Source: Pelagibacteraceae bacterium
GTDB taxonomy: Bacteria; Pseudomonadota; Alphaproteobacteria; HIMB59
Reading direction: 5' to 3'
Assembly: GCA_019651435.1 (NCBI GenBank)
Contig: BOYI01000001.1
Location: 248,001-312,000, forward strand
DNA length: 64,000 nucleotides
Below are positions 5,090 to 29,294 of the stretch, in pieces (positions within the stretch are counted from its first letter, which is position 1; the number at the start of each line of letters is the position of its first letter). The notes beneath the pieces are model-generated. The model was not told the origin of the DNA, did no database searches, and saw only the letters and a program-made list of their open reading frames with translations. Both the position numbers and the translations under genes were made by a program.

Positions 5090-5093
5090 TGAG

Positions 5094-6269: not shown

Positions 6270-6302
6270 GTATCAAAGTTAATCATCTATAAGGAGGAAT
6301 TG

Positions 6303-7613: not shown

Positions 7614-7625
7614 AATATAAAACCT

Positions 7626-7651
7626 ATGGGTGGGGCTCAATTCCCACCCAT
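7626..7651 (+). terminator. Hairpin between binding protein and permease genes
   Basis: A perfect 9-bp stem, ATGGGTGGG (7626-7634) with CCCACCCAT (7643-7651), encloses an 8-base loop and is followed by a T-rich stretch. Its position directly after the receptor gene fits a partial terminator or 3-prime mRNA stabiliser that lets the receptor be made in excess over the membrane subunits. Confidence 0.7.
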
Positions 7652-7665
7652 CTATATTTTCTTTA

Positions 7666-9704: not shown

Positions 9705-9706
9705 TC

Positions 9707-12417: not shown

Positions 12418-12426
12418 GAGGAATAG

Positions 12427-13437
12427 ATGAAAAAATTTATGAATACAGCAGATGACTTTTTAAAGGAAAGTCTTCAGGGTTTTGGGGCTGCTCATCAGGA
12501 TATAGTGAGCGTTTATTATGACCCTAATTTTATTACAAGATCTCAACCCACTAAAGACGGCAAAGTAGCATTAATCAGTGGTGGTGGAAGCGGACATGAG
12601 CCAATGCATGGAGGATTAGTAGGACACGGGATGCTTGATGCTGCATGTCCTGGTTTTGTATTCTCTTCTCCCACACCCGATCAAATGTTAGCTGCAGCAG
12701 AAAAGGTTGATAGTGGTGCTGGTGTACTGTTTATTGTGAAAAATTACTCAGGCGATGTTATGAATTTCCAAATGGCTGCCGAAATGATGCAAGGCCCCAA
12801 TGAGTCTGTATTAACTAACGATGATGTTGCTGTTGAAGACTCTTCTTTTACAACTGGTCGAAGAGGTGTTGCAGCTACGGTTTTAGTTGAAAAAATAGTT
12901 GGGTCTTTAGCTGAGAATGGCGGCTCTCTTCAAGAATGTAAAGCTTTAGGAGATAAAGTTAATCAAAATTCAGGATCGATGGGCGTTGCTTTTTCAAGCT
13001 GTACTGTCCCTGCTGCTGGTAAACCTACTTTTGAATTAGGTGCAGATGAAATGGAATTTGGTGTTGGTATTCATGGCGAACCAGGTCGAAGAAGAGATAA
13101 AATTAAGCCTGCTCAAGATATTACTAATGAACTTTTAGAAGCAATTATTGAAGACCTCAAGCCTAATTCAAATGAAGAAACACTTCTTTTTGTAAATGGA
13201 ATGGGTGGAACTCCTTTAACAGAATTATACTTGGTTTTTGATAATGCTAAAAAACTACTTGATAGTAAGAATATTAAGATTTCCAGATCATTAGTTGGTA
13301 ACTTCTGTACCTCTCTCGAAATGCAAGGTGCTTCAATTACTCTTACAAAACTTGATGAAGAAATAGCAAAACATTGGGACTCAAAAGTTCATACCGCCGC
13401 GATGCGATGGGAATGTAATTTATTTATAGATTTTTAG
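12427..13437 (+). CDS. dhaK: Dihydroxyacetone kinase subunit DhaK-type
   Basis: Substrate-binding subunit that phosphorylates dihydroxyacetone or a related short ketose. GGGSGHEPMHGG lies near residue 55, and GIHGEPGRRR holds the histidine that covalently binds the ketone. FVNGMGGTP and the closing HTAAMRW are family features. It has a clear AGGAGG just upstream. DhaK normally ends shortly after MRWG; here the frame runs on to 13437, probably because one G is missing at about 13410, and the real stop is likely TAA at 13416-13418. Related DAK-family kinases act on apulose and tetruloses, so a branched or four-carbon ketose is possible given xylA and the other isomerases in this cluster. Confidence 0.88.
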   Translation: MKKFMNTADDFLKESLQGFGAAHQDIVSVYYDPNFITRSQPTKDGKVALISGGGSGHEPMHGGLVGHGMLDAACPGFVFSSPTPDQMLAAAEKVDSGAGVLFIVKNYSGDVMNFQMAAEMMQGPNESVLTNDDVAVEDSSFTTGRRGVAATVLVEKIVGSLAENGGSLQECKALGDKVNQNSGSMGVAFSSCTVPAAGKPTFELGADEMEFGVGIHGEPGRRRDKIKPAQDITNELLEAIIEDLKPNSNEETLLFVNGMGGTPLTELYLVFDNAKKLLDSKNIKISRSLVGNFCTSLEMQGASITLTKLDEEIAKHWDSKVHTAAMRWECNLFIDF

Positions 13438-13451
13438 GAGTCTTTTAGTGG

Positions 13452-14209
13452 TTATTTTGCGGTCCAGCCTCCATCAATAACTAATGAAGAACCTGTAATC
13501 ATTGATGAAGCACTTGATGCTAAATATACAACTGCAGTAGCAATATCACTTTCTTTAGCAAATCGACCTAAGGGAATGTTCTGAAGAGTTTCTTTTAAAC
13601 TTTTATTCAAAAAAACTCTTGACCATAGGGGTTTCAAAAAGTAGGGCATATAGAATTCACGCGAATATTATATTTAGCTAAATCAAGCGCCATTCCTTTC
13701 GTTAATCCCTCTAGCCCAAACTTCGTCATGTTATACGTACTCCTAATTGGTGCTCCAACTTTTCCTAATTAGAGGACATATTGATTATACTACCGCCAAC
13801 AATTTTTCTTTTTTGTGCTTAAGCATGATGTTTGCAGAATAATTGAGAAATATGAAATGCAGCTTTTAAATTTAAATTAACCATATATTCCATATCGCTT
13901 TTTTTAATTTTGGTGAAATGCTCAGGTATATTAGTACCAGCATTATTTAGAAGAATATCGATTTTACTGATTTTGGGCAAAAAATTTTTTTTATTTGGTC
14001 ATAATAAAGAATGTCACATTAAAAATGTCAAAATCTTTTTTTTTTTGATTAATTTTTCTGAAGTTGAGCAAAATCGCTTGCAGTTCTGTTTTATTGCGAT
14101 TATGTCACCCCCTGACTCCCCAAAACCCAAAAGCAGCTGCTTTTCCTATACCTTTACCAGCACCCGTTACTAGTCTTTTATTTTTATTTTGAAAATTTTT
14201 TAAATACAT
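13452..14209 (-). pseudogene. Short-chain dehydrogenase/reductase (multiple frameshifts)
   Basis: Reading the minus strand across several frames recovers a complete classical SDR. The NAD(P)-binding motif is LVTGAGKGIGKA at the start, then ILLNNAG, the active-site [12 protein letters not shown] (Tyr and Lys), and the ending SSASSMITGSSLVIDGGW. Only the last 65 residues (13452-13649) are open in one frame. The breaks fall in homopolymers and the motifs are intact, so the gene is probably functional in the organism. It starts six bases after the stop of the ATPase gene and is the last member of the minus-strand HisD-ATPase-SDR operon. Likely role: oxidation or reduction of a pathway hydroxyl. 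Confidence 0.75.
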
Positions 14210-14215
14210 CAAGGG

Positions 14216-15298
14216 TCAATTAAATAATTGAGTCATGATCATTAAAAAGTTAAATTTATTAGTATCAAATTTAATTTTCAAAAGCTGACCTGTTTTTTTT
14301 TTTGGGATCACTTTCACATTCAAAAAATTATTGGACCTTTTTGGTTTTCTAAGTACAAAAGTATTTCCCCAAATTTTCTTACGACAAAAGTTTTGCTCTG
14401 CCAATCAAAGTCATCATTTTCCCAGTAATATGAAAGTTTTCTGGTCTCAAACCAAAAAGGAAAATATTTTCATTTTTAAGTTCTTTGTTTATAGATTGTT
14501 TAATTTAAAATTTTCCCTTGTCCAAGAGCACTAACTGTAAGTTGTTTTTATCTTGATTAATCAATTTTGCAGGTTTTAAATTCTTTTTTGGGAGATCCTA
14601 TAAAACTTGCAAAAAAAATATTACTTGGCTTATTATACAAATTTAAAGGATTGCCTTGTTGTGATATCCTCCCTTTTATCTAAGACAACTATCTCATCAC
14701 TTAGTGTCATAGCTTCAGTTTGGTCATGATTTTACAAAATCATCGTTGCATCGTTTTGGTTCATGTAGTTTGGGCAAGTTCAACTCTCATTTGAACACGT
14801 AAAGATGCATCTAAATTTGATATGGTTCATCGAACAAAAAAACTTTAGGTTTTCTTGTGATAGCCCTACCGATTGCAACTTTTGTCTTTGACCTCCAGAT
14901 AATTTTTTTGGGTTTACGTTGTAGGTAATCCTCAATCGGGAAGTTCTTCCCCTTTTATTAAAAGATGATCAATTTTCTTGTGGTTTTTTTTTTTAATTTT
15001 TTAAACCAAAAGCCCTATTTTCAAAGACTGTCATATGAGGGTAGAGGGAAAAGATTAAAAACCATGGCTATTCCTCTCTTTTTTGGAAGATTATTAATTT
15101 TTTTTCCTCCAATTGAAATTGTGCCAGAGTTAATATCTTCAAGTCCAGCTATCATTCTCAGTAAGGTTGACTTTCCCCCCCTGATGGGGCCCAAATAAGG
15201 TTGTAAAAGAGTGTTCTTTAATTTTTAATGAAAAAACCTTAATGACATGCACCTTTTCGTAAAAAATTATTTACTGATTTTATGTCTATATCTGCCAT
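14216..15298 (-). pseudogene. ABC transporter ATPase, MalK/UgpC-type (many frameshifts)
   Basis: In-frame fragments on the minus strand give a whole sugar-ABC ATPase. Fragments include MADIDIKSVN at the start, Walker [22 protein letters not shown]-loop [18 protein letters not shown], signature [15 protein letters not shown], Walker [17 protein letters not shown], and GLRPENFHITG in the regulatory domain. At least eight indels interrupt it and some bases near the switch region are poorly readable. It is the only ATPase near the SBP/permease set at 24993-28187, which has none of its own, so it is the probable engine of that importer. It sits between the HisD-like gene and the SDR, in the same orientation as both. 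Confidence 0.75.
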
Positions 15299-15322
15299 TT
15301 ATTTTTTTAATGAGGATAATTA

Positions 15323-16644
15323 TTAATCATGTTTTGTTTTAGTTGCTGGTTTGCCATATTCTATATTCATTCCACCAAATCTTCTTGCTCTCACATTACA
15401 TTGTTCTGCGTGACCTATAAAGCCCTCTAAATAGGAAAGTCTCGAACCATAACTAGCTATTTTAGTCGCTGCTTCATCAGAAGTGATCTTTTGATAGGTG
15501 TGAGTTTTTAAAAATTTCCCTACCCATAGACCCCCAGTATATCTTCCTGCTTTTTAGTTGGCAAAGTATGATTTGTTCCAATAACTTTATCACCGTTTGC
15601 AACGTTTGTTCTAGAGCCCAAAACAAAGCACCATAGGAGGTCATGTTTTCAAGAAACCAGTCATCTTTATTAGTCATAATTTGTACATGCTCTGAAGCTA
15701 TTTCATTGGCTTTCATCAACATTTCTTCATAATTATCGCAAACTATAATTTCTCCATAATTTTCCCAGCTAGCCGAAGCAGTTTCTCTTGTTGGTAAAAT
15801 TTTAAGTAACTTATCAATTTCAACTAAAGTTTCCTCAGCAAGTTTTTTGAATTTGTAATCAAAACTGCTGGTGAGTTGTAACCATGCTCAGCTTGGCCTA
15901 ATAGATCTGTGGCACATATTTCAGAGTCAACAGTTTCATCGGCAATGACCATAGTTTCAGTTGGGCCAGCAAATAGATCAATTCCTACTTTTCCGTATAG
16001 TTGTCTTTTTGCTTCTGCAACATAAGCGTTGCCTGGACCAACAATCATATCAACAGGAGAGATGGTTTCGGTACCTAGCGCCATTGCGCCTACCCCTTGC
16101 ATTCCTCCTAGAACATAAATTTCATGAGCACCGGCCATTTTCATTGCGGCTATCACTGCAGGATTTGGTTTGCCTTCAAAAGGTGGAGTAGTAGCAACAA
16201 TGCGGGAACTCCCGCTACAGATGCAGTAAGGACAGACATGTGCGCAGATGCAACCATAGGAAATTTTCCTGCTGGAACGTAGCATCCAACCGATTGAACA
16301 GGAATATTTTTATGACCTAAAATAACTCCAGGCATTGTCTCAACCTCTAAATCACTCAAAGTTTCCATTTGTGCCTTGGCAAAATTTCTAATCTGTTCTT
16401 GGGCAAATTTAATATCATCTAGTACATCAGCTGGGACCTGATTTACAATTTCAATAATTTCCTCTTCTGAGAGTTTAAAGTTATCAGGGGAGTAATTATC
16501 AAATTTTTGTGAAAGTTCTCTGATAAATTTATCTCCTTCGTTTTTGATTTGTTTGAGAGTTGTCTCAACTATTTTTTTTACTTTATCGTCATCATTTATT
16601 CTTTGGGTTTCATCTATTCCTTTTTTTAAATAAATTATACTCAT
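15323..16644 (-). CDS. HisD-family dehydrogenase, catabolic paralogue (several frameshifts)
   Basis: Zinc- and NAD-dependent dehydrogenase of the histidinol dehydrogenase family, about 435 residues when rejoined. Zinc and catalytic elements are visible: [35 protein letters not shown] and the late GHAEQ. It belongs by eye to the HisD-like group annotated in marine alphaproteobacteria that includes sulfopropanediol dehydrogenase HpsN, not to the histidine operon enzyme: no his genes flank it, and it is in a catabolic island. Frames break near 16195, 15840, 15655 and 15500-15545. Probable role: two-step oxidation of an alcohol to an acid; the substrate is unknown. Confidence 0.82.
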
Positions 16645-16652
16645 GACAGTTT

Positions 16653-17687
16653 CTAATTATTACAAAGCTCAAAAACATTAATTCCCAATTGGGATAGAAT
16701 ATGCGCTATATCAATGGGAACCCAGTTCTCTCTAATTTTTCCTTCATGATGAAGATAAAAATCCATAACTCTCATTTTAATCTTTTTTCCAGTTGGATTA
16801 TAGCCCAGCCATTCATTTGAGTTATGGATACATTCAATGCTATGCCATCCTGCAGTCATTGAGAAGTTACCATCACCTATTTCTGCTAAATGCCCAATAG
16901 TCCAATAGTCTCTTTCAGGAAAGGTTAAACGAAAAGGCATTTGATGATGATTAATAAAACCCTCTAACCCTCTGGCAGTGCCAACACCACATGGTCCGTA
17001 CCACATCATCTTAGGGTGCCAATAATCTTTTTGGGGATGGTCAATTAATTTTTGTTTTAATAAATTTTTATCAGCTTTTACATCAGCGTCCTGCTCAGGC
17101 TTGATGTTAAGAGTGTTTTGCATTTCTAAGGATTGCTTAAGAGACTGCATTGAAAGTTCTTGATCATGGTTTTCAAATAAAGCCCCGTCTCCTGTAATTG
17201 GAGCAGGCCATAATTGCTCAACCCCTAGAGATGCATTAATTGGCCAATATCCTGCCTGCCTAATGAAATCTATGGTATCGATCAAAATATGTGATTGTAT
17301 AATCTTTCCCTCAAATATCTGATGAACTTCACATAATCTTAAGTAAATAGTTTTATGTGTGGGTTTTATATTGAGCCAAGATTTGGTGAATGTTCCAGCT
17401 AAGATTGAAACAGTTGAGACGTAATCATTACCTTTATATTCACCTCCCATGATTATATTGTCTCTTCTTTCGAGGTCTTCAAACGAACTAAGAATAGGTT
17501 TCCAAATTTTATTTGATAGTTGATTTATATCATTTAATTCATTGACTGGGTAAAATGCATTAATCGTTGCATTTTCATGATAAGCAATTCGAATATTTTC
17601 ATCAATATTTTGCAAACTAGACTCTGCAATATTTTTTAATAATTTTTTAATTAATTTTTTATTTTGAATATTTTTTTCTAAATTCAT
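16653..17687 (-). CDS. SnoaL-like two-domain protein
   Basis: 344 residues with two NTF2/SnoaL-like cone domains, about residues 15-150 and 190-335. The second reads WHPKMMWYGPCGVGTARGLEGFINHH, close to the metal-free polyketide-cyclase SnoaL pattern, then MTAGWHSIECIHNSNEWLGYNPTGKKIKMRVMDFY split by short loops. It is intact. The SnoaL family includes cyclases, hydrolases and isomerases using acid-base catalysis within the cone; no specific reaction can be named. It starts the minus-strand operon that continues into the HisD-like gene eight bases away and is divergent from the bicupin gene. Confidence 0.8.
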   Translation of the reverse strand: MNLEKNIQNKKLIKKLLKNIAESSLQNIDENIRIAYHENATINAFYPVNELNDINQLSNKIWKPILSSFEDLERRDNIIMGGEYKGNDYVSTVSILAGTFTKSWLNIKPTHKTIYLRLCEVHQIFEGKIIQSHILIDTIDFIRQAGYWPINASLGVEQLWPAPITGDGALFENHDQELSMQSLKQSLEMQNTLNIKPEQDADVKADKNLLKQKLIDHPQKDYWHPKMMWYGPCGVGTARGLEGFINHHQMPFRLTFPERDYWTIGHLAEIGDGNFSMTAGWHSIECIHNSNEWLGYNPTGKKIKMRVMDFYLHHEGKIRENWVPIDIAHILSQLGINVFELCNN

Positions 17688-17755
17688 TTTTAACCGTACC
17701 CTTTAAATTACCTTTTAATTGATTTATCTACTTTTTCAAATAGTATTATTCATGT

Positions 17756-18742
17756 ATGAACAAAACATCTAATACTCTAGAAAAACGTTTGGCTAAATTT
17801 CAAGATTTAGTTCCAAGTAAAGTCCCCTTTGTAGAAGGAAAATTAAAAGGCCATCAAGATAGATCTAATTACTCTATAGTTGGCCCAGGCGTCAGTGAAG
17901 ACTCTAAACAAAATGTTAAAATTGCTGAGGCGCATGGTTTCAATATTGGGGCAGTAAGTGCCGCCCCTCTCAACGGCTCTGGTTTGCACAGTCATACGAC
18001 TGCTGAAGTTTTTTTAATATTCTCTGGTTCATGGCGTTTTTATTGGGGTGTCGACGGGAAAGAGGGCGAAGTAATACTAAACAAAGGAGATGTTGCCTCA
18101 TTTCCAACAAATATGTTCAGGGGCTTTCAAAATGTAAGCGAAGACAAAGAAGCGCTGATGTTTGTTGTTTTAGGAGAGAACGATCCTGGGGTCATAACAT
18201 GGACACCGGAGCTTTTAAAAAAAGCAAAAGAAAGTGGAATGATCCTTTTAGAAGACAATACTTTGATAGACCTTGAGAAAAAAGATATTCCTGATGGAAA
18301 AAAACCAATTGAACCAGTTAATGATAAAGAACTCAGTTCTTTTGATCATTACACATCTGAAGAAATTGAAAAATATGTAATCAGATACAAAGATCATTTA
18401 CAATATTCTGTGGATGATGATCACTATAACTCTAACTCAATCATTAATTACTTAGATTATTTCACCATTCACGATAAAAAATTTGATCCCAATATCTTGC
18501 ATAATACTGGTTTTGGACTGACTATGCTTAAAGGAAAAAATGCTCATATTCATCCGTACTCACTTAATCAGTCCGAAGTATTTTTATGTTACGAAGGTGA
18601 ATGGCAAATAACATGTGATGATGAGATTGTTACAATTGGACCCAAGGATACCTTCTCTTCACCTAAAAACTCTGTCAGGAGTATTAAAAATATCAGCGAT
18701 CAAGAAGGTAGTATTTTTATCGTTCGCCAAAAAAATTCCTAA
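17756..18742 (+). CDS. Bicupin protein
   Basis: 328 residues forming two cupin barrels. Barrel 1 (about residues 55-145) has LHSHTTAEVFLIFSGSW, giving the HxH...E ligand set; barrel 2 (about 240-325) has HIHPYSLNQSEVFLCYEGEW with an equivalent set. Both could bind a metal such as Fe, Mn or Zn. Bicupins include dioxygenases, decarboxylases and sugar isomerases, and the sequence alone does not decide. A TATTAT hexamer ends only seven bases before the ATG, which hints at a leaderless or very short 5-prime end. The SnoaL-like gene follows five bases after the stop, so the two are cotranscribed. Confidence 0.82.
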   Translation: MNKTSNTLEKRLAKFQDLVPSKVPFVEGKLKGHQDRSNYSIVGPGVSEDSKQNVKIAEAHGFNIGAVSAAPLNGSGLHSHTTAEVFLIFSGSWRFYWGVDGKEGEVILNKGDVASFPTNMFRGFQNVSEDKEALMFVVLGENDPGVITWTPELLKKAKESGMILLEDNTLIDLEKKDIPDGKKPIEPVNDKELSSFDHYTSEEIEKYVIRYKDHLQYSVDDDHYNSNSIINYLDYFTIHDKKFDPNILHNTGFGLTMLKGKNAHIHPYSLNQSEVFLCYEGEWQITCDDEIVTIGPKDTFSSPKNSVRSIKNISDQEGSIFIVRQKNS

Positions 18743-18747
18743 CTGAG

Positions 18748-19719
18748 ATGAAGGGTTTTGATGGAAATTTTACAGATCTACCAGATTATATTCTAAAGAT
18801 AACTTATCAGATTTGGGAAGATAAAGATGTGGAGTCAATTCGAAAGTATTATTCCGAAGACATACCTCTTCGAACGCCCGATGGTGTAATTTACGGCTCT
18901 GATACTGTCGTAAAGGCAACCTACGCCACACTCAATGAGTTTCCTGATCGTCAACTATTGGCTGAAGATGTTATCTGGATCGGAAACGATAATGATGAAT
19001 TTCTATCTTCTCATCGGATATTTTCTATTGCGACACATCAAAATGATGGAGTTTATGGTAAGGCGACGGGAAAAAAATTAGGCTATAGAGTTATTGCTGA
19101 CTGTGCATGTAAAAATAATCAAGTCTATGATGAGTGGTTAGTAAGAGATCAAGGGGCTATTGTTCGCCAGTTAGGAATGAACCCCAAAACATATGCTGCT
19201 AATTTGATTGAAATGCAAGGTGGAAAAGCCGAATGCAAGGTCCCGTTTAATCGACAAACTCCTCATAAAGTTTTTTACAATCAAATACCCATCTCTCAAA
19301 AAAATTCAGGAACAGAATACGCAAGTATCCTGTCTTCTATTTTCCAAGGTAATTTTGAGATAATGGACAAAACTTACGATAGAGCCGTGAACCAAGAACA
19401 ACCTGGGGGCTTCAAGGTAGTAGGAATAAATGAAGTAAAAAATTTCTGGATTAATTTAAAAAATACCTTTCCTGATGCTGAGTTTAAAGTTGATCATATT
19501 GCATACTTAGAAGAAAAAAATGAATATAAAAAAGCATCTATCCGATGGTCACTTGAGGGAAAACACTCTGGAAAAGGTTTTTTCTCAGATCCAAGCCAAG
19601 CAAACATTCACATTATGGGCATTAATCATGTAGAGTTTGGCGCAAGAGGAATTAAAAATGAATGGATCCTCTTTGATGAAACTATTATTTGGAAACAAAT
19701 TTTACTCAAAACTGGATGA
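18748..19719 (+). CDS. SnoaL-like two-domain protein
   Basis: 323 residues with two SnoaL/NTF2-like domains (about 8-160 and 185-320). The start MKGFDGNFTDLPDYILKITY and the downstream pattern IWEDKDVESIRKYY are clearly shared with the broken gene at 23474-24432, so the two are paralogues. Features such as YGKATGKKLGYRVIADC are typical of SnoaL-like ester cyclase folds. The reading frame is intact. It lies between the bicupin and the RraA-like gene; its TGA overlaps the next ATG. Confidence 0.78.
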   Translation: MKGFDGNFTDLPDYILKITYQIWEDKDVESIRKYYSEDIPLRTPDGVIYGSDTVVKATYATLNEFPDRQLLAEDVIWIGNDNDEFLSSHRIFSIATHQNDGVYGKATGKKLGYRVIADCACKNNQVYDEWLVRDQGAIVRQLGMNPKTYAANLIEMQGGKAECKVPFNRQTPHKVFYNQIPISQKNSGTEYASILSSIFQGNFEIMDKTYDRAVNQEQPGGFKVVGINEVKNFWINLKNTFPDAEFKVDHIAYLEEKNEYKKASIRWSLEGKHSGKGFFSDPSQANIHIMGINHVEFGARGIKNEWILFDETIIWKQILLKTG

Positions 19720-20426
19720 TGTTGGCTCCATTAACTTCTCTAGAAAAGAAAATTTTTAAACAAATTAAAAATTTTGATACTCCTTCAATATCAAACGCTC
19801 TTGAGCTAATTGATCCAGCTCTGAGATCAAAAGGTCATACCCAAAAAACTATGCACTGTTCAAATCCTTTATTAAAACCAATTGTGGGATTCGCTAAAAC
19901 AGCAGTCATTACTTCTCGAAAAAAGAGGAATACTAACATTATTAAAAACAGAGACAAATACTACGAGTATATGTATGACGGTGATTATCCTAAAATATGT
20001 GTTGTAGAGGATAGGGACAAACACAATACTATTGGTGCGTGGTGGGGTGAGTTGAATGTTTCTATTCATTCTAATTTTGGATTTGTTGGTGCCATTACAA
20101 ACGGTGCAGTAAGAGATTTGCAAACTTTAGATCAAAAATTTCAAATTTTAAGCGGAGAGATTAGAGTAGGGCATGGATATAATCAAATTCATAAAATAAA
20201 GTGTAAAGTTAATATTTTTAATATGGATGTATATCCAGATGATATTATTCATGCAGACCTCCACGGTGCAGTTATCATTAAAAGAGAATACTTAAAAGAA
20301 CTACCAAGTGCTCTAGACAAAATGATAAAAAAAGAGAGAACAATAATAGATTTTATGAAAAAAAATAAAACTTTTTCTAAAAAACAATTTTTAAATAAAT
20401 ATAAAAAATTTTTACAAAAAAAATAA
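19716..20426 (+). CDS. RraA-like protein (HMG/CHA aldolase family)
   Basis: About 236 residues of the RraA / 4-hydroxy-4-methyl-2-oxoglutarate aldolase fold. The signature GAITNGAVRDLQTLD carries the Arg-Asp pair used for oxaloacetate decarboxylase or aldolase activity, and the later ADLHGAVIIKREYLKELP is the conserved C-terminal segment. ATG 19716 (or 19719) overlaps the preceding stop; an in-frame ATG at 19689 would overlap more. In a catabolic island this is more likely a pyruvate-type aldolase or decarboxylase than the RNase E regulator. It lies one base before the MetE-like gene. Confidence 0.82.
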   Translation: MMLAPLTSLEKKIFKQIKNFDTPSISNALELIDPALRSKGHTQKTMHCSNPLLKPIVGFAKTAVITSRKKRNTNIIKNRDKYYEYMYDGDYPKICVVEDRDKHNTIGAWWGELNVSIHSNFGFVGAITNGAVRDLQTLDQKFQILSGEIRVGHGYNQIHKIKCKVNIFNMDVYPDDIIHADLHGAVIIKREYLKELPSALDKMIKKERTIIDFMKKNKTFSKKQFLNKYKKFLQKK

Positions 20427-20427
20427 C

Positions 20428-21557
20428 TTGAACTCAAAAATACTCACAACTCATGTCGGCAGTTTACCAAGATCAAAAGAATTATCAGAAATTATTTTTT
20501 CTAAGGACAAAAAAGAATTATTCGATGAAAAAAAATTTGAATCTTTAATAAAAAAAAATGTTGATGAAGTTGTAAGAAGACAAATAGACCTAGGAATTGA
20601 CATTATCAGTGACGGTGAGATGAGCAAAATTAGTTATGCTACCTACATTAAAGAGAGAGTCTCAGGTTTTTCTGGGGAGAGTGAAAGAAGAGCCCCTGCA
20701 GACCTTGATGAATTCCCAGAATATAAAAATAAGATTGCAAAAAGTGGAGGCACACCAATTTATACTCGACCATGTTGTACGGGTGAACTCAAAATTTTCA
20801 ATGAAAATTTGCTAATACAGGATATTGATAATCTTTTAAATTCTATTGCGACGCATCAACATGAATTAGCTTTTATGAACGCCGCATCACCTGGGGTTAT
20901 AAATGTTTTTATGCCAAATAAATTTTATAAAGATGATGATGAATATTTGAATAAATTATCTGAAATAATGTCTAAGGAGTATGAGTTAATAACCAATCGG
21001 GGCCTTCAATTACAAATCGATTGTCCAGATTTAGCTTTGGCTAGACACATGAACTACAAACATTTATCAGAAAAAGAATTTATATACAGGGCTGAAAAAC
21101 AAGTTGAGGCACTCAATAATTCTCTCAAAAATGTATCTGCTAAAAATATTAGAATGCACATTTGTTGGGGCAATTATGAAGGCCCACATACGTATGACAT
21201 AGCTTTAGAAAAAATTATGCCTGTAATTTTTAAAAGCAAATGTAAAATATCTTCTCATTGAGTCCTCTAATCCTAGGCATGCTCATGAGTGGAAACTTTT
21301 GAAAATATCAAACTCCCTAAAGACAAAGTAATTGTTCCTGGCGTAATTGACTCAACCTCTAATTTTGTAGAACATCCTGAAGTTGTAGCTGATAGACTTA
21401 TTCAATTTTCAAAAGTAGTTCCAAAGATCAACTTATTGCAGGAGCAGACTGTGGATTTAGCACTTTTGCAGGTTTTGGCAAAGTTGATGAAAAAATTGTT
21501 TATGCAAAATTAAAATCATTAGTTGATGGTGCAAAATTAGCTTCAAAAATTATTTGA
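20428..21557 (+). CDS. MetE C-terminal-type (cobalamin-independent) methyltransferase (two frameshifts)
   Basis: Zinc methyltransferase barrel of about 376 residues, equal to the catalytic half of MetE, with no N-terminal half. It starts at TTG 20428 with ILTTHVGSLPRSKEL. Zinc ligands are expected in RMHICWGNYEGPH (His, Cys) and GADCGFSTFAGFG (Cys); VPGVIDSTSNFVEHPE is also diagnostic. The frame breaks near 21245 and again near 21440. Such core-MetE proteins in catabolic clusters may transfer methyl groups from or to a growth substrate rather than make methionine; here the operon partners are RraA, SnoaL-like and bicupin genes. Confidence 0.85.
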
Positions 21558-22260
21558 TTTTTTTAACCAACTTATAATTGCTTTATTAAACCTTTCAGAT
21601 TGTTCAAACATTACAAAATGACTTGAATATGGTATGAAAGAAAGATCAGAATTTTTAATTTTATTTTTTAATTCTATATTCATCTCTCTAGATGACATTT
21701 TATCTTGAGAGCCTGAGATGATCAGAGTTTTCATATTTAATTTTTGAAGTTTTCTTAATAAATTTGGTCTTTCAATTATTGCATTTGTTTGGCTTTTAAA
21801 ACTTGCATAACCGAGATTTTCGGCCATTAAATTCATTATCTTAGTATATCGTTTGTTGTTCTTATTTTTTTTAAAAAATATGAATTTAAGCTATTGATGC
21901 TTAATTTTTCTATATAATTGTTTTTGTTAAATTCATTTAGTGATTTTGTTAATAAAGTTTTTCTACTTTTTGATACAGATCTTCCATTACTACCTATTAG
22001 AATTAATTTTTGAACTTTTTTTGGATAGTATATTGCCAAGTTTAAAGCTACAAAACCTCCCATTGAAAATCCAACTACTATGAATTTTTCTGGTAAAAGT
22101 TTGAGTGTATGCTGAGTAAATTCTTTGATCTTTTTTCCCAGTTTTAGTTCTGGTATAATTACATTGTATTTTTATTCTCAAGTTTAGTTTTAAGGCTTTT
22201 CCAAATCGTGCCATCGCACATGTACCCTGGAATTAAAACTATTGTTTCAAGGTTGATTAT
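21543..22260 (-). CDS. Alpha/beta hydrolase (frameshifted)
   Basis: Serine hydrolase of about 238 residues. The oxyanion region reads IVLIPGYMCDGTIW, the nucleophile elbow is VVGFSMGGFVAL, the acid is in ISGSQDKM, and the histidine in YSSHFVMFEQ. Frames break near 21840 and 22150. No clear ATG is visible at the N-terminus; the frame opens right at the stop of the upstream SnoaL-like gene at 22257, so the start is uncertain. It overlaps the convergent MetE-like gene by 15 bases. It could hydrolyse an ester or lactone intermediate. Confidence 0.75.
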
Positions 22261-23252
22261 CTATGTATTAGAAATAGTTTTATTTCTCTCAAAAGATCAA
22301 TTCCCAAAATTTTTAAAAATGGAGATGATCGATAAATATCCAATTTTAAAGCAATTTTATCTCCATCTCTTCTGTATAAATCAACAACTCTCATTTCTGA
22401 TTCAATATCACTTTTGCTTGCAAGCCCTAGGTATCCACCAGTAGATTTCATAATTAAATTAGGCCAGCCAAACCATCCTCCCAAATCATCTTCTGCACTA
22501 CTTAAAATATGCCCTCCAAATTTAATAAATTCTAATCCATCTTAAAAGGTTTTGTATGACCCTTGATGTAGCCATCAATAGTATAAGAGGCCCCAATACC
22601 ACCAGGTCCCCACCAAATCATGTCCTCATTCCAGTCAAGTTTTAGATCTTTTTTATGAGATTTCATTTTTGATTTTTTTTCCAATCGATCTCGCATTCTA
22701 TGAATTAAATTTAGTGTTTTGACACCCTCACTCTCATTTGTTTTCTCAAATTTTTAAAACCCTTTTGTGATTCATTGGCCCTGAGTCACACATACAAGCC
22801 CAGTGGACCGGAATCCCGAAAGCCCTAATTGTGTGAAGTTGAAAATATCGAAAAATGCCCCTTCAGTAATTTTATTTTTTTTAACTTTATAGAATTCAGC
22901 AAATCTTAAGAGCGCAGGTTTATGATTTGATTTAATCCAAAAAAAATTGTTTTTAAAAAATTTCCCTAAAAAGTGACCCATAGATAAAACCCCAAACATC
23001 ATTATTTTTTTAGAGAATTTTTTCCCTGCATAAAAGATATCTAGTTTTCTTGTGTGGGTAAAAAGATTTTTAATTGGGCCCCAAAGTTTTTTTGTTTTTT
23101 CAACACCGATAATTCATTGAATGGATGTGTGCATCGCATATAAAAATTTTTTTGATACATATTTTGAATTATTTTTAAATCTTTGGTTTTACTTTTTTCC
23201 AATTCTTTTAAAAATTTAAAACAATTTTTTTTTCATTTTGAAATTTTTTCAT
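22257..23252 (-). pseudogene. SnoaL-like two-domain protein (many frameshifts)
   Basis: Minus-strand fragments rebuild a protein of about 330 residues related to the one at 16653-17687. The N-terminal half has KPALLRFAEFYKVK followed by the ITEGAFF and TQGPM segments; the C-terminal half has LDWNEDMIWWGPGGIGASYT, GGYLGLASKSDIESEMRVVD and LGIDLLREIKLFLIHR. The WWGPGGIG segment parallels MWYGPCGVG of 16653-17687. At least six indels, with inserted G and A runs, interrupt it. The conserved segments suggest a real gene with poor base calling, but loss of function cannot be ruled out. The alpha/beta hydrolase follows it directly. Confidence 0.65.
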
Positions 23253-23473
23253 AATTAATCAATTACATTAAATAATTTATATATTTAAGTTCAAATAATT
23301 TTTTTTTATTTAAACCCTGGCTAAGAAAATTAAAAATCTATCAACTTTTGGGGGCCAAAAAAATTCAAGACAAACATATGCCAAAAAAATTTTATATTTC
23401 TCTTAAATCATATGGTGGTGGTGGATCAGCAACAAATTAAAACCCCAAAACCTAATAAATTAAAACCCAGAAT

Positions 23474-24432
23474 ATGGAGGGTTTTGAAAGAAAATGCAAC
23501 ATCATTGACATATTGTTAAAATAACTTTTACAATTTGGGAAAAGAAAAAAAATTGGGTTTTATATATGACCACTTAGCCATGACTGTATTTTGGGGTAAA
23601 TAGGGCTTCAACACGGTTCAGAAAAAAAAAGTTCGAAGTCCAACTAATAACATTTCCGGAAAAAGATTTTTTGCAGAAGGGTAATATGGGCAGGTGACCA
23701 TAAAGTTGGTTACCACACATCCATAAAATCATAACGGGGAATACTGGTTACAGTAAATTTTCACCCCACTGGAAATAAAGTTGATTATTTTTTTATTGCT
23801 AAATTGGGGCCAAAAATAATGAAATTTTTTTTGAAAAAGTAGTTTAGATACAGCAGGATTGATTAAACAATTGGTTTAAACATTGATGATATTGCAAGAC
23901 AAGTTTCTAAAGAAATCAAAAGGGTGTGATTTTAAACGATTACCGATAAAAAAAAAAAATTTAATCAAAAATAAAAAAAAAATTTAAAAATTATAAAATT
24001 CCTGATTTGAGTCAAAATTCAATGTAAGAAATTTTTTGCATTCATCCTTTGATCAAATATGGAATAGAAGAAATTTTTTCTTTGATACAAGAAATTTACT
24101 CTACAAATGTTGATTTTGAAGGCTCTACAATGCGAAAATTCAAAGGTGCTCACAAATTAAAAGACTTCATTATTTCTTTGATAGCATGTTTCCCTGACTT
24201 GGCGCTAAATATTGAAGACTTATACTGGATGGGAAATCAAAAGATGGATACCTAGTTTCAATTCGTTGGGCTGCTATCGGAACCCATAAAGGGAATGGTA
24301 TGTATGGCCAACCTACAAACAAAAAATGCCAACTGTGGGGTATCACTCAATGGGAAGTTAAAAAAAAATCAAATTATTAAAAAGTGGACAGGCTTTAATG
24401 AGTTTGCTATCCATGTTCAACTCGTAAGATAA
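23474..24432 (+). pseudogene. SnoaL-like two-domain protein, paralogue (many frameshifts)
   Basis: Starting at ATG 23474, pieces in all three frames give MEGFERKCN, LLKITFTIWEKKKIGFIYDHY, then RFFAEGNIWAGDHKVGYHTS, GLIKQLGLNIDDIARQVSKE, and at the end AAIGTHKGNGMYGQPTNKK and WTGFNEFAIHVQLVR. The beginning aligns with the intact gene at 18748 (MKGF, ILKIT, IWE.K). Long A, T and G runs mark the damaged places. The 220 bases upstream, between this gene and the divergent one ending at 23252, are AT-rich and show no other gene. Confidence 0.6.
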
Positions 24433-24437
24433 AATAA

Positions 24438-24861
24438 ATGAACACAGACTATAATAAAAAATTGCTGGAAAATATGTATGAGGCTTTAAATTCTCAAGAT
24501 TTAGAAGCTCAACATCAATATTGGACGATGATATGGTATGGCATGGCCCACCTGGTTTTGGTGATATTCATGGTATAGAAAACTTTAAATATAAAGTTCT
24601 GTCACCTTTTTATCAGGCGTTTCCCGATTACCATGTGAAAAATGATATTGTTGTTGCTGAGGATAATTGGATTAGCGCCACAGGATTTTTAACGGGCACT
24701 CATAAAAGGGGCTTATCTTGGGGTCGAACCGACTGGCGTAGCTATAAAAATGCAATTTTCAGATTTTTGGTCAATAAAAAAATGGAAAGTTTCTAGACAA
24801 TTATGTCATGGTCGATAATCATGGGGTCTTTGAACAAATGGGTCTAAAATTTAAATCATAG
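24438..24861 (+). CDS. SnoaL-like single-domain protein (frameshifted)
   Basis: About 141 residues, one SnoaL-like cone. MNTDYNKKLLENMYEALNSQ is followed by HQYWDDDMVWHGPPGFGDI, YQAFPDYHVKNDIVVAEDNW and THKGAYLGVEPTG. The F-PDYH segment and the MxWHGPxG pattern are typical of the predicted ester cyclase group. One G seems missing at about 24523, and further indels lie near 24710 and 24795. It starts five bases after the two-domain paralogue, so it is in the same transcript, and precedes the binding-protein gene by 130 bases. Confidence 0.72.
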
Positions 24862-24992
24862 TTACTTTTTGTCACAAGATAAAATAAATATCATTTCAAT
24901 ATAAAAAAATTCTTCTCTTAAATTTTTTAAAAATTTAATATACCTTCAATCTTAATTTGTGATAATTTTTACAAAAGAATAAAAGGGGAAAT

Positions 24993-26267
24993 ATGAAAAA
25001 AATTTTCATAGCATTTATACTATCTTTGTTTTCTAGTACCGTTTTTGCTGGAAGCCACTCTCCTTGCGGAGTGAAAGATGGTTCAATTAGCATTCTAGCT
25101 AATGAATTTACTACTTATAGAATATTTATGGATGAAGTGAAAAGTTGCGCTGGTTCTGATGTTGAATTTAATGTCACTCATACTGTTGACCATAATAAAC
25201 TTCAAGTTGCTGCTTTATCAGCAAATCCATCAGAATTTTCTGCAAAACTTGTGACTAACGGTTCAATCACACCATTAATGAATGATGGCTTACTTCGACC
25301 TCTAGATGACTTAGTGGCTAAATATGGTTCAAATCTTAATGATAATCAAAAAATAACCATTGATGGTAAAATATATGCAGTTGCATTTATGGCTAACGCT
25401 CAGCATCTTTGGTATAGAGAAGTATTCTAAATGAGTTGAATATTGAAGTACCTTCAACTTATGAAGAAGTTATCGCTGCTGCAGAAAAGATTAAAGCATC
25501 AGGCATGATGGAAAACCCTTATGCAGGTGCCTTTAAATCTGGTTGGAACTTAGGACAAGAGTTTGTAAACATGTACCTTGGTCATGGTGGTGAATTCTTT
25601 AAATCAGGAACGGCTCAACCAAATGTTAATAATGCAAAAGGCATTGCAGCTTTAGAGACTATTAAAAAATTAACTGAATTAAGTAATCCTGACTTTTTAA
25701 CTCAAGATACAAATGCAGTGAAAGAAGAATGGGAATCTGGGAACGTTGCTTTAATGCACGTTTGGAATTCAGCTGCTGCTTCCTTGCTTGATGATGAAGG
25801 CGACCAATCTATTAAAGAAGATACAAGGCTAGCTCCTTCACCAACTGTTGGTGGTGGAAGTAAACCAGCAACGACACTTTGGTGGGATGGCATAGGTATC
25901 GCAACTAATACCTCAGATGCTAATGCCGAAGCTTCGTTTAGAGCACTAGTGGGAGCCGCTCAATCTAGCGATTTAGCAAACAATAACCTAATGCTACTGT
26001 ATAGGCTTATTAAAGGATATGAACCTGGCGATACTGCAGGACCAGTAGTTGATGCCGCTAATAGAGGAACTTCGCCATACCCAAGTTTTCCTCCATATGA
26101 GCCTTATGCATGGAGCATTAAGCACAGAGCTTGTGGAATTCTTACAAGGAAAAGAGTCTGCAGAAAAAGCGTTGGCCGATGTTGAAGATGCTTACGTAGC
26201 AAAAGCGACTGAAGAAGGTTTTTATAATCCTTCGTTAAAATCTATTTTAGAGAGTGGATCTATTTAA
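24993..26267 (+). CDS. ABC transporter substrate-binding protein, family 1 (frameshifted)
   Basis: Periplasmic receptor of about 424 residues. The signal peptide MKKIFIAFILSLFSSTVFA is followed by the mature GSHSPCGVKDGSISILANEF. Features of family 1 sugar receptors include LRPLDDLVAKYG, IDGKIYAVAFMANAQHLWY and NVALMHVWNSAAASL. The frame breaks near 25430 and near 26100. GGGGAAAT precedes the ATG. Two permease genes follow; an ATPase is not adjacent, and the gene at 14216-15298 is the likely partner. The ligand is unknown but is presumably the substrate of the surrounding SnoaL/HisD/SDR island. Confidence 0.85.
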
Positions 26268-26277
26268 TCCACTCTCT
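26249..26277 (+). terminator. Hairpin overlapping the receptor stop codon
   Basis: A perfect 11-bp stem, AGAGAGTGGAT (26249-26259) with ATCCACTCTCT (26267-26277), has a 7-base loop that contains the TAA stop. It sits between receptor and permease genes, exactly as the hairpin at 7626-7651 does in the first transporter, and probably sets the receptor-to-permease ratio. Confidence 0.7.
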
Positions 26278-26288
26278 AAAACTCTTTC

Positions 26289-27305
26289 ATGCCTCATAGA
26301 ACATTTTTTTGGTTTATTTTCCCTACTGCTTTGGCAATGGTTTTGTTTATTGGCATGCCTATTGTCTCCAGTTTTTTCAATCCCTTCATATTGAGACTGA
26401 ACAGGTTCTTGTTGAGGTAGAAAATTGTGATCCTTTTGGTTGTAAAAAAAATTAGAGTTGATGTAGAGGCTTCTAAAAGTTAGAAGAGGAAAATCCTTCG
26501 GAAGATTTAATGGTTTCAATACATATTTAGATAGAAATCATTTGGCGTTTAATGAAATTAGTGATGCATGGAATAATTCTTCAAATTTTCAGAATTTAAA
26601 GATGTTGTTCTCAATTTACCTTTTATAAAGCTTTATTGTTTACTTTATCCTTCTGTTTCGTGGTCACCCCGCCCGTAATAATATTAGGATTTATCGTTGC
26701 TTTAAGTATGAATACATTGGCAAAAAGTATTAAAACATTTGCCATATTCGGCGCCATATTACCGATGATTGTGACACCACTAATCGGATCTCTTGTTTTA
26801 TTTTGGATGATTGACTCCCAAGGTATAATTGGAGCAACAATTCAAATATTATTTAATGATCCAAACCTATCTTTAAAAGCCTCAAGCACTTTAACATGGA
26901 TTACATTATTTACTTATGGCGTATGGCATACAACTCCATTGCTTTTATAGTTTTTATGCAGCTTTACAGACCGTCCTCAAGACCCTTTAGAAGCAGCCAT
27001 TATTGATGGCGCTTCAAGATTTCAACGTGTTCGACATATAGTAATTCCTCACCTTTATCCTGTTGCAACATTTATCATTCTCATTAGTTTGATGGACAAC
27101 TTTAGAGTATTTGAACCAATCATCGGTTTTCTGCAGAGGGCGTTGCTCAATCTCTTTCATGGATGATTTATCAAGATTTAAGAAATGAGAATAAAATGCT
27201 TTTGGGTCAGCTGGAGCAACTTCAATGTTAACAATTATAGGCATTGCTATTTTGTTAACACCTGTATTAATTAGGACATGGAAAGAGTTCAAAACACAAA
27301 GGTAG
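26289..27305 (+). CDS. ABC transporter permease, MalF-type (frameshifted)
   Basis: The first membrane subunit of the second importer, about 335 residues. MPHRTFFWFIFPTALAMVLF begins the protein, and the central helices (residues about 120-220) are intact at 26636-26950. The EAA loop is PLEAAIIDGASRFQRVRHIV. Several indels disrupt 26400-26640, 26945 and 27130-27215. The first periplasmic loop is the worst-read part, and its residues should not be trusted. It ends seven bases before the second permease. Confidence 0.8.
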
Positions 27306-27312
27306 CTAAAAT

Positions 27313-28187
27313 ATGAATTCAAGAGTGAATAAATATTCAAAGCAGTTGATAATTGTCAATGCCATCTTTCTATCTATTTGGCTGATTATATCTGTTTTCC
27401 TTTTATGTGGACTCTTTGGGGTTCTTTTAAGGATTAAAGCTGATTTCTTTTCAAGAGCGGAATGGACGTATGCTCTAAATGGTTTCAACACTTTATTAGA
27501 AACAGGTGCCACCACAACTATCAAAGCTTATGTCGAGTCCTGGAAAAGGGGAATTTTGGGGGAAAAAACTCAATATTATTTTTAATTTATGTTTCAGTTG
27601 TTACTTCCCCTTTTATTTCGGAACCTTGGGGTTATTATCCAGATCAAAATTTAAATACACATTTTACATCTTGATAGCAGCTTTAATTTTTAGAGCAATG
27701 CCTCATATAACTCTGGTATCAGGTTATTTATTCCCCTTTTTCCAATTAAATATATGGGGAATATTGCCAACAACTATCATTGTTCTGGTAGCTATTAACC
27801 AACCTTTCACTCTCTGGTTACTTTATTCATTCTTCAAAACAGTGCCAAAAGAATTGATAAAAGGGCTTTTAATTTAGAGGTTGCCCCCAATTTTCCTTTT
27901 TTAAAATTTATTATTATGCCAATAAGTGGCCTGGAGTAGTAACAGCAGGTTTATTTAGCATGATGTTAGCTTATAATGACTTTACTGTTACAGCTTTACT
28001 TTTAAATCAACAAAACTATACCATGGTGCCAAAAATCAATGCTTTTCTTGGCACTATTGAACATGGAGGAAATTATATGTGGGCAGTTTCTAGTGTAGTT
28101 TCTGCAACAGCTCCTCTATTCATGATAATCTGGTTTTTTCAACGACAACTTATAAGTGGTCTGACAGCTGGAGCAGTAAAAGGCTAG
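27313..28187 (+). CDS. ABC transporter permease, MalG-type (frameshifted)
   Basis: The second membrane subunit, about 291 residues. The N-terminal helix is QLIIVNAIFLSIWLIISVFL, the central part is read in another frame (GYLFPFFQLNIWGILPTTII), and the C-terminal part is MMLAYNDFTVTALLLNQQNY through SGLTAGAVKG, a typical MalG-type ending. The EAA loop is partly visible as VPKELI...EVAPNF. Breaks lie near 27530-27560, 27870 and 27920. The genes for the second importer stop here; the HAD-like gene follows after 60 bases. Confidence 0.8.
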
Positions 28188-28247
28188 GAATTTATTTAAG
28201 ATCTTACGTATGTATGCAAAAGATATACATTTTTCATTTCATATAGG

Positions 28248-28907
28248 ATGATCAAAGCAATCCTTTTTGGTTCAATCGGAACAATTATCGAAACTTCTGA
28301 AATCCAGAGGGCTTCTTTTAATCAGGCTTTTTTAGAGAAGGGACTAGATTGGTATTGGAGTAAAGAAACTTATAAAAAGTTAATTAAAAAATCTGGAGGG
28401 TCAAAAAGAATAAAAGACTTTGCAAAAAAAAATCAAGTTAATATTGACTCAAATTTATTGAGAGAGAAAAAAACAGAAATTTTTAATAAAAAATTGAAAA
28501 CTGAAAAAATACCACCCCGAGAAGGAGTAATAGAAATTATTGAATATGCCAAGTCTCACAATGTAAAAATTGGTCTGGCGTCTACAACCTCTACTGATAA
28601 TATCAACGCGCTTTTTACTACTGTAAGTAATGTAATTTACAAAAATGACTTCGACTTCATTGGTAGCAGGACAGTGGTTGATAAACCAAAGCCTGAACCA
28701 GATATTTATTTTAAAGCTATTCGAAGTTTGGGTATAAACTCAAAAGAATGTGTGGCAATTGAAGACTCTTATGAAAGTGCGTTGTCAGCTTATAAAACAA
28801 ACATCAAATGTATTGCATTTCCAGGCGCATATCATATGGATGACGATTTTAAAATATGCCAAAAAAAACTCAACAAACTTGATATTTCTATTTTTGATAT
28901 AAGTTAA
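28248..28907 (+). CDS. HAD-fold protein, CbbY/beta-phosphoglucomutase-like, without motif I aspartates
   Basis: 219 residues with the cap and core of a HAD subclass IA protein. LASTTS is motif II, KPKPEPDIYFKAI the lysine motif, and AIEDSYESA motif IV. Motif I, normally FDxDGTL, reads ILFGSIGTIIE, so both catalytic aspartates are absent. The gene is intact, so this is not a frameshift effect. From memory, similar CbbY-like proteins starting FGSIGT occur in other marine alphaproteobacteria. It may be a non-catalytic or altered-function member. It closes the second transporter operon. Confidence 0.8.
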   Translation: MIKAILFGSIGTIIETSEIQRASFNQAFLEKGLDWYWSKETYKKLIKKSGGSKRIKDFAKKNQVNIDSNLLREKKTEIFNKKLKTEKIPPREGVIEIIEYAKSHNVKIGLASTTSTDNINALFTTVSNVIYKNDFDFIGSRTVVDKPKPEPDIYFKAIRSLGINSKECVAIEDSYESALSAYKTNIKCIAFPGAYHMDDDFKICQKKLNKLDISIFDIS

Positions 28908-29218: not shown

Positions 29219-29294
29219 TGGTGGAGCCAAGGGGGATCGAACCCCTGACCTCTACGCTGCCAGCGTAGCGCTCTCCCAGCTGAGCTATGGCCCC
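29219..29294 (-). tRNA. tRNA-Ala (anticodon GGC)
   Basis: Read on the minus strand, 76 bases fold as a cloverleaf: acceptor GGGGCCA pairing with TGGCTCC, D-arm GCTCAGCTGGGAGAGC, anticodon stem CTACG/CGTAG around loop CTGGCAG (anticodon GGC), T-arm AGGGG-TTCGATC-CCCCT and an encoded CCA. It reads GCC alanine codons. Confidence 0.95.

Follow-up and report, generated by a model that had tools for sequence, protein, structure and literature searches.

The closest described systems to the gene block analyzed here are a class of sugar operons and several single enzymes. LacI-controlled operons for sugars combine a LacI-family regulator, divergent palindromes and a CUT1 importer with an SDR dehydrogenase and an aldolase. 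HpsN, the R-2,3-dihydroxypropanesulfonate (DHPS) 3-dehydrogenase of Cupriavidus pinatubonensis (PDB 8v35), is the nearest solved relative of the HisD-like dehydrogenase of the block. The HpsN study gives its substrate loop as GRY[A/S]H, with His126 binding the sulfonate, and the loop of HisD as GSAPL; it also states that the sulfolyase genes (suyAB, cuyA, xsc) are not always co-located with HpsN (PMC11382572). The block itself lies at positions 13452 to 28907 of a stretch of 64,000 nucleotides (hereafter the window) from a Pelagibacteraceae bacterium (GCA_019651435.1, contig BOYI01000001.1, positions 248,001 to 312,000). It is rich in SnoaL genes, and the two halves of its ABC importer lie apart.

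This block is a real, conserved and operator-linked catabolic system, made of known families in a combination that we did not find described. We think it fairly likely that, as a single system, it imports and breaks down a small molecule that is polyhydroxylated and sugar-like. Its relatives share with the sugar operons the regulator, palindromes, importer, SDR and aldolase, whereas the conserved core here is SnoaL-rich and comes without a kinase, a glycosidase or a known sugar pathway enzyme. Neither a description of the gene set nor a characterized pathway containing it was found in the open-licence literature, in agreement with a first-pass annotation made from the sequence alone; the main text of a paper on AEGEAN-169/HIMB59 (PMC10308909) does not use the words "histidinol", "polyketide" or "cupin".

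Composition of the block

The block comprises about 15 genes, given below in their order along the window and followed by the neighboring HAD gene, with the evidence in brackets (ORF, open reading frame).

13452 to 14209, minus strand: SDR dehydrogenase, FabG/KduD-like, frame broken (tblastn to the SDR of related locus L024, 44–78%, four pieces; Pfam adh_short_C2 and NCBIfam on an open relative)
About 14215 to 15298, minus strand: CUT1-type ABC importer ATPase, frame broken (one piece of UgpC/MalK type; tblastn with the ATPase of L036, 33–65%, four out-of-frame stretches)
15323 to 16644, minus strand: HisD-like NAD dehydrogenase, related to HpsN and with a loop of class GK[FY]P[ML], frame broken (Pfam Histidinol_dh; tblastn 55–86%, four pieces; loop motif from relatives)
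16653 to 17687, minus strand: SnoaL-A, two NTF2/SnoaL domains (type II), intact ORF (Pfam SnoaL, two stretches; structure model)
17756 to 18742, plus strand: bicupin, N-terminal cupin HxH...E with Arg replacing the fourth ligand (Pfam Cupin_2, two stretches; residue counts)
18748 to 19719, plus strand: SnoaL-B, two SnoaL domains (type I), intact ORF (Pfam SnoaL, two stretches; structure model)
19689 to 20426, plus strand: RraA-like class II aldolase/decarboxylase (Pfam RraA-like, 56.9 bits for a cut-off of 24.5; NCBIfam matches all far under their cut-offs)
20428 to 21556, plus strand: MetE-core protein of the cobalamin-independent methionine synthase II type, end frameshifted (Pfam Meth_synt_2; zinc-ligand columns from relatives)
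21543 to 22232, minus strand: alpha/beta hydrolase, frame broken (NCBIfam under cut-off; tblastn 50–51%, two pieces)
22257 to about 23237, minus strand: SnoaL-C, two domains (type II), frame broken (tblastn 41% over residues 31–316 of the 334 of an open relative)
About 23379 to 24433, plus strand: SnoaL-D, two domains (type I), frame broken (tblastn 33–48%, residues 64–375 of 379)
About 24440 to 24861, plus strand: SnoaL-E, single domain, frame broken (Pfam SnoaL_2 for one piece; tblastn 60–88%)
24993 to 26267, plus strand: CUT1 sugar-type solute-binding protein (SBP), frame broken (tblastn 85–89%, three pieces; Pfam SBP_bac_1 on a relative)
26330 to 27302, plus strand: CUT1 permease 1, frame broken (tblastn 64–96%, three pieces)
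27313 to 28187, plus strand: CUT1 permease 2, frame broken (tblastn 46%; broken ORFs)
28248 to 28907, plus strand: HAD-family protein (tblastn 59% to the L024 protein, whose HAD name was assigned by eye)

The gene calls of the first-pass annotation hold. The five SnoaL genes lie where it had placed them, four with two domains and the last with one (Pfam on the intact ORFs and on one SnoaL-E piece, tblastn otherwise); the bicupin and the RraA-like, MetE-core, HisD-like, SDR and alpha/beta hydrolase genes are present (Pfam, NCBIfam or tblastn); and the importer is split, with its ATPase on the minus strand and the SBP and two permeases (24993 to 28187) on the plus strand. The bicupin, RraA-like, Meth_synt_2 and Histidinol_dh matches all exceed their Pfam cut-offs; the three separate pieces of SnoaL-C, each taken alone, have no Pfam match. 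Six related loci (L025, L032, L036, L038, L040 and L041) keep the order SDR, ATPase, HisD, and in L030 the ATPase and HisD genes stand at a contig end.

Conservation across related genomes

A scan of genome contigs with SnoaL-B (SnoB) gave 232 confirmed stretches, of which we took the best 80 as loci. The 54 with full 10-kb flanks were counted, and the 26 under 20.9 kb were excluded. In all 54 full loci, the HisD-like gene, SDR, SnoaL-A, bicupin, MetE and both permeases lie beside SnoB; the best SDR copy is at least 69% identical in every one, and the distance from HisD to MetE is 5.5–6.3 kb. The SBP is of one type in 43 full loci and of a second type in the remaining 11. HAD is found in 40 of the 54 and LacI in 37; 36 have SnoaL-C, -D and -E, and 21 have an extra two-domain SnoaL (SnoaL-F).

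Among 60 near genomes, 37 have a SnoaL-B match (the window's own genome included), and the set is therefore common yet not universal, even within the genus. A class-wide sample of 386 genomes gave any SnoaL-B match in 32 (again with its own) and close orthologs in 24. Co-occurrence was tested with cut-offs set by eye: at least 43% identity for SnoB (24 of the 32 genomes with any match); an E-value no worse than 5e-166 for cluster-type HisD, to which the window's broken copy and one partial match were added (57 of 76); and an identity of at least about 47% for the MetE type, with one partial match added (43 of 72). With kinship ignored, SnoB and HisD occur together in 22 genomes (Fisher P 2e-18), as do SnoB and MetE (P 7e-22). 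HisD lies within 12 kb on the same contig in 20 of the 24 SnoB genomes. The first-pass annotation had pointed to co-occurrence in related genomes as the way to check its reading, and both the full loci and the class sample (22 of the 24 SnoB genomes with HisD) bear it out. HisD matches show a gap in identity: for full-length matches in the class sample it lies between 58% and 49%, and in a phylum sample, where a HisD-like protein reaches E 1e-100 or better in 38 of 348 genomes, between 59–75% and 43–47%. In phage records, no SnoB relative was found at E 1e-5. The block is not a chance neighborhood.

A palindrome shared by enzyme and importer promoters

In LacI-bearing loci, the SnoaL-A/bicupin gap contains a palindrome, whose exact core ATTCA-N6-TGAAT we counted. 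The 37 full loci with LacI (776 kb) hold 79 exact sites, every one of them inside three divergent promoter gaps: SnoaL-A/bicupin (37/37 loci), SnoaL-C/SnoaL-D (17 of the 19 loci with both genes) and LacI/SBP (19/37). The 17 full loci lacking LacI contain none; under a dinucleotide Markov model, 8.8 per Mb would be expected. When all 80 loci are considered, the SnoaL-A/bicupin gap has an exact site in 46 of the 49 with LacI; the contigs of the three exceptions (L073, L075, L082) begin inside or past the bicupin. Exact sites with LacI undetected were met in L045, L061 and L076 (short or cut contigs), and L063 has neither LacI nor palindrome. Both states are present in the window's genus, where L059, placed in a genome of that genus by its contig position, has LacI and four exact sites and L018 to L042 are without either.

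Looser searches were less discriminating. A weight matrix built from the SnoaL-A/bicupin gap ranked the LacI/SBP gap top in only 19 of 48 loci, many of the better-ranked places being likely the SnoaL-C/SnoaL-D gap, still included in that scan. With one mismatch allowed, there are 283 matches in 943 kb with LacI and 45 in 505 kb without, and since 214 per Mb are expected these are mixed with chance matches. LacI, its site and the repeats of that site at other promoters co-occur, and although the loci are related this ties the enzymes and the importer into one system. The block is thus probably one regulon, with LacI predicted to bind the palindrome. Import, oxidation and carbon-carbon cleavage, as put forward in the first-pass annotation, are reasonable from the protein families, and in the relatives the shared operator adds the tie to the importer.

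Related sets on plasmids

Related sets are carried by plasmids of Roseobacteraceae, Ensifer, Vibrio, Pantoea, Novosphingobium, Deinococcus and Priestia. They are complete or nearly so in Ruegeria THAF33, Marinovum algicola, Octadecabacter arcticus, Paracoccus alcaliphilus and Ensifer adhaerens (an unannotated record, whose genes were read from ORFs and tblastn), and partial in Vibrio pelagius, Roseibium, Alloyangia, Pantoea dispersa, Novosphingobium, Deinococcus QL22 and Priestia filamentosa. In Klebsiella michiganensis, the annotation of the stretch lists LacI, HisD, SDR, MFS, hydrolase, an HpcH-type aldolase and a cupin but no SnoaL, and Phaeobacter inhibens DOK1-1 retains only an ATPase and two SnoaL stretches. 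Among the recorded sources of the carriers are a kelp gametophyte, a diatom culture, soil and leaves; a "marine" compound, as first suggested, is too narrow, since sets are found on soil and leaf plasmids as well.

The HisD-SDR pair is also found apart from the SnoaL genes. The stretches read from Sulfitobacter pontiacus, Antarctobacter, Tritonibacter and Alloyangia YSBP01 lack SnoaL and bring together LacI, a TAXI-TRAP transporter, HisD, SDR and an HpcH-type aldolase. In the stretch read from Marinovum pMaD2, TAXI-TRAP and HisD lie with a regulator and a dehydrogenase, and both aldolase and SnoaL are absent. HisD has different neighbors in Rhizobium johnstonii pRL8, Agrobacterium larrymoorei and Pararhizobium gei. 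Within the class sample, 35 of the 57 genomes with HisD lack SnoB, and 2 of the 24 with SnoB lack HisD. Because HisD without SnoaL-B is common and the reverse rare, the HisD, SDR and aldolase may represent the lower half of a pathway, and the SnoaL proteins, bicupin and MetE the upper half.

We also noted a Sphingobium sp. RAC03 plasmid (L171, 6995–8508) on which a hydroxycinnamoyl-CoA hydratase/lyase gene is followed by a MetE-core gene and then directly by a single NTF2-like gene, possibly a second context of the MetE/SnoaL pair.

One pathway or separate modules

Several observations weigh against a single import-and-catabolism system. The loci are interrelated and were all located via SnoB, so that their counts are not independent. 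Of the 54 full loci, no more than 18 have RraA and 10 the alpha/beta hydrolase, so the final steps may vary or be located elsewhere. MetE is not essential, being missing from the Paracoccus alcaliphilus and Ensifer adhaerens sets, and the stretch of Sulfitobacter DSM 110093 has TAXI-TRAP, HisD and SDR with neither LacI nor aldolase. In some sets CUT1 is replaced by TAXI-TRAP or MFS, and the imported molecule may differ with it. The exact core is confined to about half of the LacI/SBP gaps in LacI loci, the others carrying imperfect copies. Moreover, the whole window is without an exact site and its cluster without a LacI gene, as are its closest loci (L017 to L042) and the 17 full loci mentioned above. 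Finally, both the order of the steps and the substrate are inferred.

Part of this evidence would suit a mosaic, in which the SnoaL genes with the importer, the HisD-SDR pair, MetE and the bicupin are separate modules with a common neighborhood and no common pathway: HisD stands without SnoaL in nine plasmid stretches, the MetE gene of Sphingobium RAC03 has one NTF2 gene next to it, and the importer type varies. We nevertheless regard a mosaic as unlikely, given that the enzyme core is retained in all 54 full loci and that in those with LacI one palindrome is confined to three gaps of the cluster.

Broken reading frames

The single import-and-catabolism system would be dead in the window's genome if the frameshifts there were genuine and the island decaying. 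Most genes of the block are indeed out of frame, with the exception of SnoaL-A, SnoaL-B, the bicupin, RraA and HAD: SDR and HisD each fall into four pieces, and the SBP and permease 1 into three, where L024 and other loci have single ORFs. Homopolymers are in excess in the window cluster, however, with 1.68 A/T runs of at least 8 per kb (0.51 in L024) and 3.49 G/C runs of at least 4 per kb (1.53 in L024). Because the frames of the relatives are open and homopolymer runs are in excess here, we read the breaks mainly as sequence errors. ATPase genes outside the cluster (9707–11463) are broken too, and the identity of the SBP stays at 85–89% across its breaks, all of which makes decay improbable.

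Tandem SnoaL proteins

A tree of 132 SnoaL rows of at least 280 aa (one of them labeled SnoaL-E by best match), built with a quick method and midpoint-rooted, separates type I (B, D) from type II (A, F, C) with full support (Shimodaira-Hasegawa-like approximate likelihood ratio test, 100). SnoaL-C forms one clade; the other labels are not clean clades, as B and D each require two label changes and A and F each require four. The models of the window proteins have a mean predicted local distance difference test score of 87.7 (SnoaL-B) and 86.0 (SnoaL-A). Pfam SnoaL matches are above cut-off, and the domains match the folds of AclR, IdmH, SnoaL2 and ChaU, which comprise polyketide cyclases and NTF2 hydroxylases. 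When SnoaL-A (SnoA) was used for a profile search of the PDB, nothing matched at E 0.1; with SnoB there was a single match, a single-domain ester cyclase.

One Asp, which we equate with the catalytic Asp121 of SnoaL, is kept in all counted SnoaL domains except the second domain of SnoaL-D, which has Asn in 44 of 44 sequences of the order, and four cells among far relatives. The Asp of IdmH is kept here, whereas AclR and SnoaL2, named putative hydroxylases, carry Asn at this position. We read the SnoaL proteins as acid-base enzymes on the strength of this residue. They also recall the tandem NTF2 epoxide hydrolases Lsd19 and MonBI, Lsd19 being the top Foldseek match of SnoaL-A by E-value. The likeness to Lsd19 and MonBI is in the domains only, because the full-length root-mean-square deviation is 15.7–17.9 Å, with 10–12% identity.

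The SnoaL fold and its nearest structures (AclR, IdmH, ChaU) would fit a secondary-metabolite tailoring cluster in which the SnoaL proteins are polyketide cyclases. Such a cluster is very improbable: the domains here are arranged in tandem within a catabolic set, no polyketide synthase or carrier-protein gene occurs in the conserved set (ORF lists and annotated stretches), the importer, LacI-type regulator and aldolase indicate catabolism, and the host genomes measure about 0.7–1.6 Mb as assembled. The one acyl carrier protein S-malonyltransferase seen lies beyond the set, at the margin of L106 (Ruegeria sp. THAF33).

HisD-like dehydrogenase

The closest solved structures to the HisD-like enzyme are HpsN/DHPS dehydrogenases (E 2e-110). 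We compared 126 HisD-like sequences drawn from the cluster-picked loci, a set in which genuine HpsN elsewhere in the genomes goes uncounted. Glu318, His319, Asp352, Lys353 and the zinc ligands are retained in all 126, as in HpsN, whereas the sulfonate-binding His126 is present in none; Met was seen opposite the HpsN His. The loop reads GKFPM or GKYP[ML] in most cluster sequences, GRYP[IL] in further copies, and GRYNN or GRNNY, beside SnoaL-A, in 9 of 70 loci of the order; the GSAPL loop of histidine synthesis does not occur among them. The score of 429.2 bits exceeds the cut-off of 243.8 of the histidinol dehydrogenase model TIGR00069, which may not separate HpsN. In nine loci (L044, L048, L052, L058, L063, L064, L065, L086 and L092), the GKFPM HisD is swapped for the 45–47% identical GRYNN/GRNNY class, which looks like replacement by another HisD-like class.

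The enzyme should oxidize an alcohol with a neighboring chelating OH or NH2, and its substrate is probably neither DHPS nor histidinol. That the enzyme might be HpsN and the set a DHPS sulfonate pathway with extra genes is hardly credible despite the shared structure and catalytic residues, as the GRY[A/S]H loop is replaced, the neighbors are SnoaL, cupin, aldolase and LacI genes, and none of the genes named in 25 annotated plasmid stretches is a sulfolyase, although the gene table is incomplete and whole genomes were not searched. The same loop argues against sulfonates, which the first-pass annotation had listed as candidate substrates.

Cluster-type HisD genes were also seen near NAD(P) transhydrogenase genes in L153 (12001–16510, Rhizobium johnstonii pRL8) and L164 (8001–13229, Tritonibacter scottomollicae). 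In two genera (L159, 16659–20132; L165, 10435–13902), HisD, SDR and TAXI genes are followed by nadA, L-aspartate oxidase and nadC, an odd tie to NAD synthesis.

Bicupin, MetE-core protein, aldolase and hydrolase

The HxH...E motif of the bicupin, with Arg as the fourth residue, is found in 114 of 114 sequences. The MetE-core H, C, E and C columns, which we take to be the zinc ligands, are invariant in 101 of 101 and are shared, like the C-terminal family, with cobalamin-independent methionine synthase; the protein differs from the latter in its length of 376 aa, in lacking the MetE N-terminal half, and in scoring 98.9 bits with the best curated model, under the required 406. MetE-type chemistry can also transfer other alkyl groups to a thiol. 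Methyl transfer or demethylation, part of the initial reading, is unproven, its one basis being a MetE-core protein with intact zinc-ligand columns. A role as an epoxyalkane:coenzyme M transferase, conceivable from the chemistry, was considered and set aside.

The aldolases share Pfam families with the RraA-like aldolases for 4-hydroxy-4-methyl-2-oxoglutarate and 4-carboxy-4-hydroxy-2-oxoadipate and with the HpcH/HpaI aldolases. The RraA-like protein scores 20.8 bits with the LigK_PcmE model of the former (cut-off 304.5), and for the HpcH variant of Sulfitobacter the best NCBIfam matches, HpaI and GarL, are under their cut-offs. We left the aldolase substrate unassigned because these cut-offs were missed. 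For the hydrolase of the Ruegeria set, PcaD-type enol-lactonases are the best NCBIfam matches, all under cut-off, which suggests a lactone or diketone step.

Genomic setting

The host genome is assembled as 1.35 Mb in 7 contigs (69% complete), and the GC content of the window is 25–39% in 2-kb steps. Its nearest relatives in the genome collections are mostly single-cell genomes of uncultured Alphaproteobacteria, and its size, GC content and neighbors suggest the HIMB59/AEGEAN-169 order. A second sugar- or polyol-type block adjoins upstream (3936–13437), with a Gfo/Idh/MocA oxidoreductase piece, a xylose-isomerase-like TIM barrel, a CUT1 SBP, a permease-like gene (8632–9507), two neighboring CUT1 ATPase stretches (9707–10714 and 10786–11463), a DhaL-like piece assigned by eye, and DhaK (12427–13437). 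A tRNA-Ala(ggc) gene lies directly downstream of HAD (29219–29294). Farther along the window are an ArsP_2-type, ten-transmembrane heavy-metal exporter (47781–48908; Pfam, 444 bits) and tRNA-Leu(caa) (51668–51753).

Proposed pathway and its meaning

A polyhydroxylated acid or sugar-like substrate is suggested by the CUT1 importer, the LacI regulator, the KduD/FabG-like SDR and the pyruvate-type aldolases. We propose that the CUT1 importer, whose genes are observed, would take up a sugar-like ligand. In an upper tier, the tandem SnoaL/NTF2 enzymes with their acid-base Asp, the HHE-site bicupin and, where present, the MetE-core thiol alkyl or methyl transferase would reshape the compound, the folds and residues pointing to isomerization, elimination or aldol-type ring chemistry together with alkyl transfer. 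In a lower tier, the HisD-like enzyme and the SDR would turn a CH(OH)-CH2OH end into an acid and a secondary alcohol into a ketone; the PcaD-like hydrolase may open a lactone or diketone; and cleavage by an aldolase of the RraA or HpcH/HpaI type would release pyruvate or oxaloacetate and an aldehyde. LacI would act as repressor at the palindromes of the enzyme and importer promoters in the 37 full loci that have it.

A more specific idea, to which we give little credence, is a degradation route for a compound class that algae, plants and fungi share, such as methylated C7 cyclitols like gadusol and the mycosporines. Oxidation of a CH2OH beside a tertiary OH by HisD would then give a 4-hydroxy-4-carboxy-2-oxo pattern, the tandem SnoaL proteins would enolize the ring, the PcaD-like hydrolase would open it, and the MetE-core protein would demethylate. 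RraA-type aldolases cleave the 4-hydroxy-4-carboxy-2-oxo pattern, and the chemistry of a methylated C7 cyclitol such as gadusol is compatible on paper. If true, this would be a globally important route, with a HisD-like class of third specificity as its signature.

Whatever the compound, it should be common in the sea and on plants, because the set is present in many genomes of one small-genome group of ocean bacteria and on plasmids of bacteria from seaweed, diatoms, soil and leaves. The annotations "histidinol dehydrogenase", "ester cyclase" and "methionine synthase" probably mislead about the role of these genes here. With one importer, one operator and one HisD subclass, the block offers a testable handle on a missing catabolic pathway.

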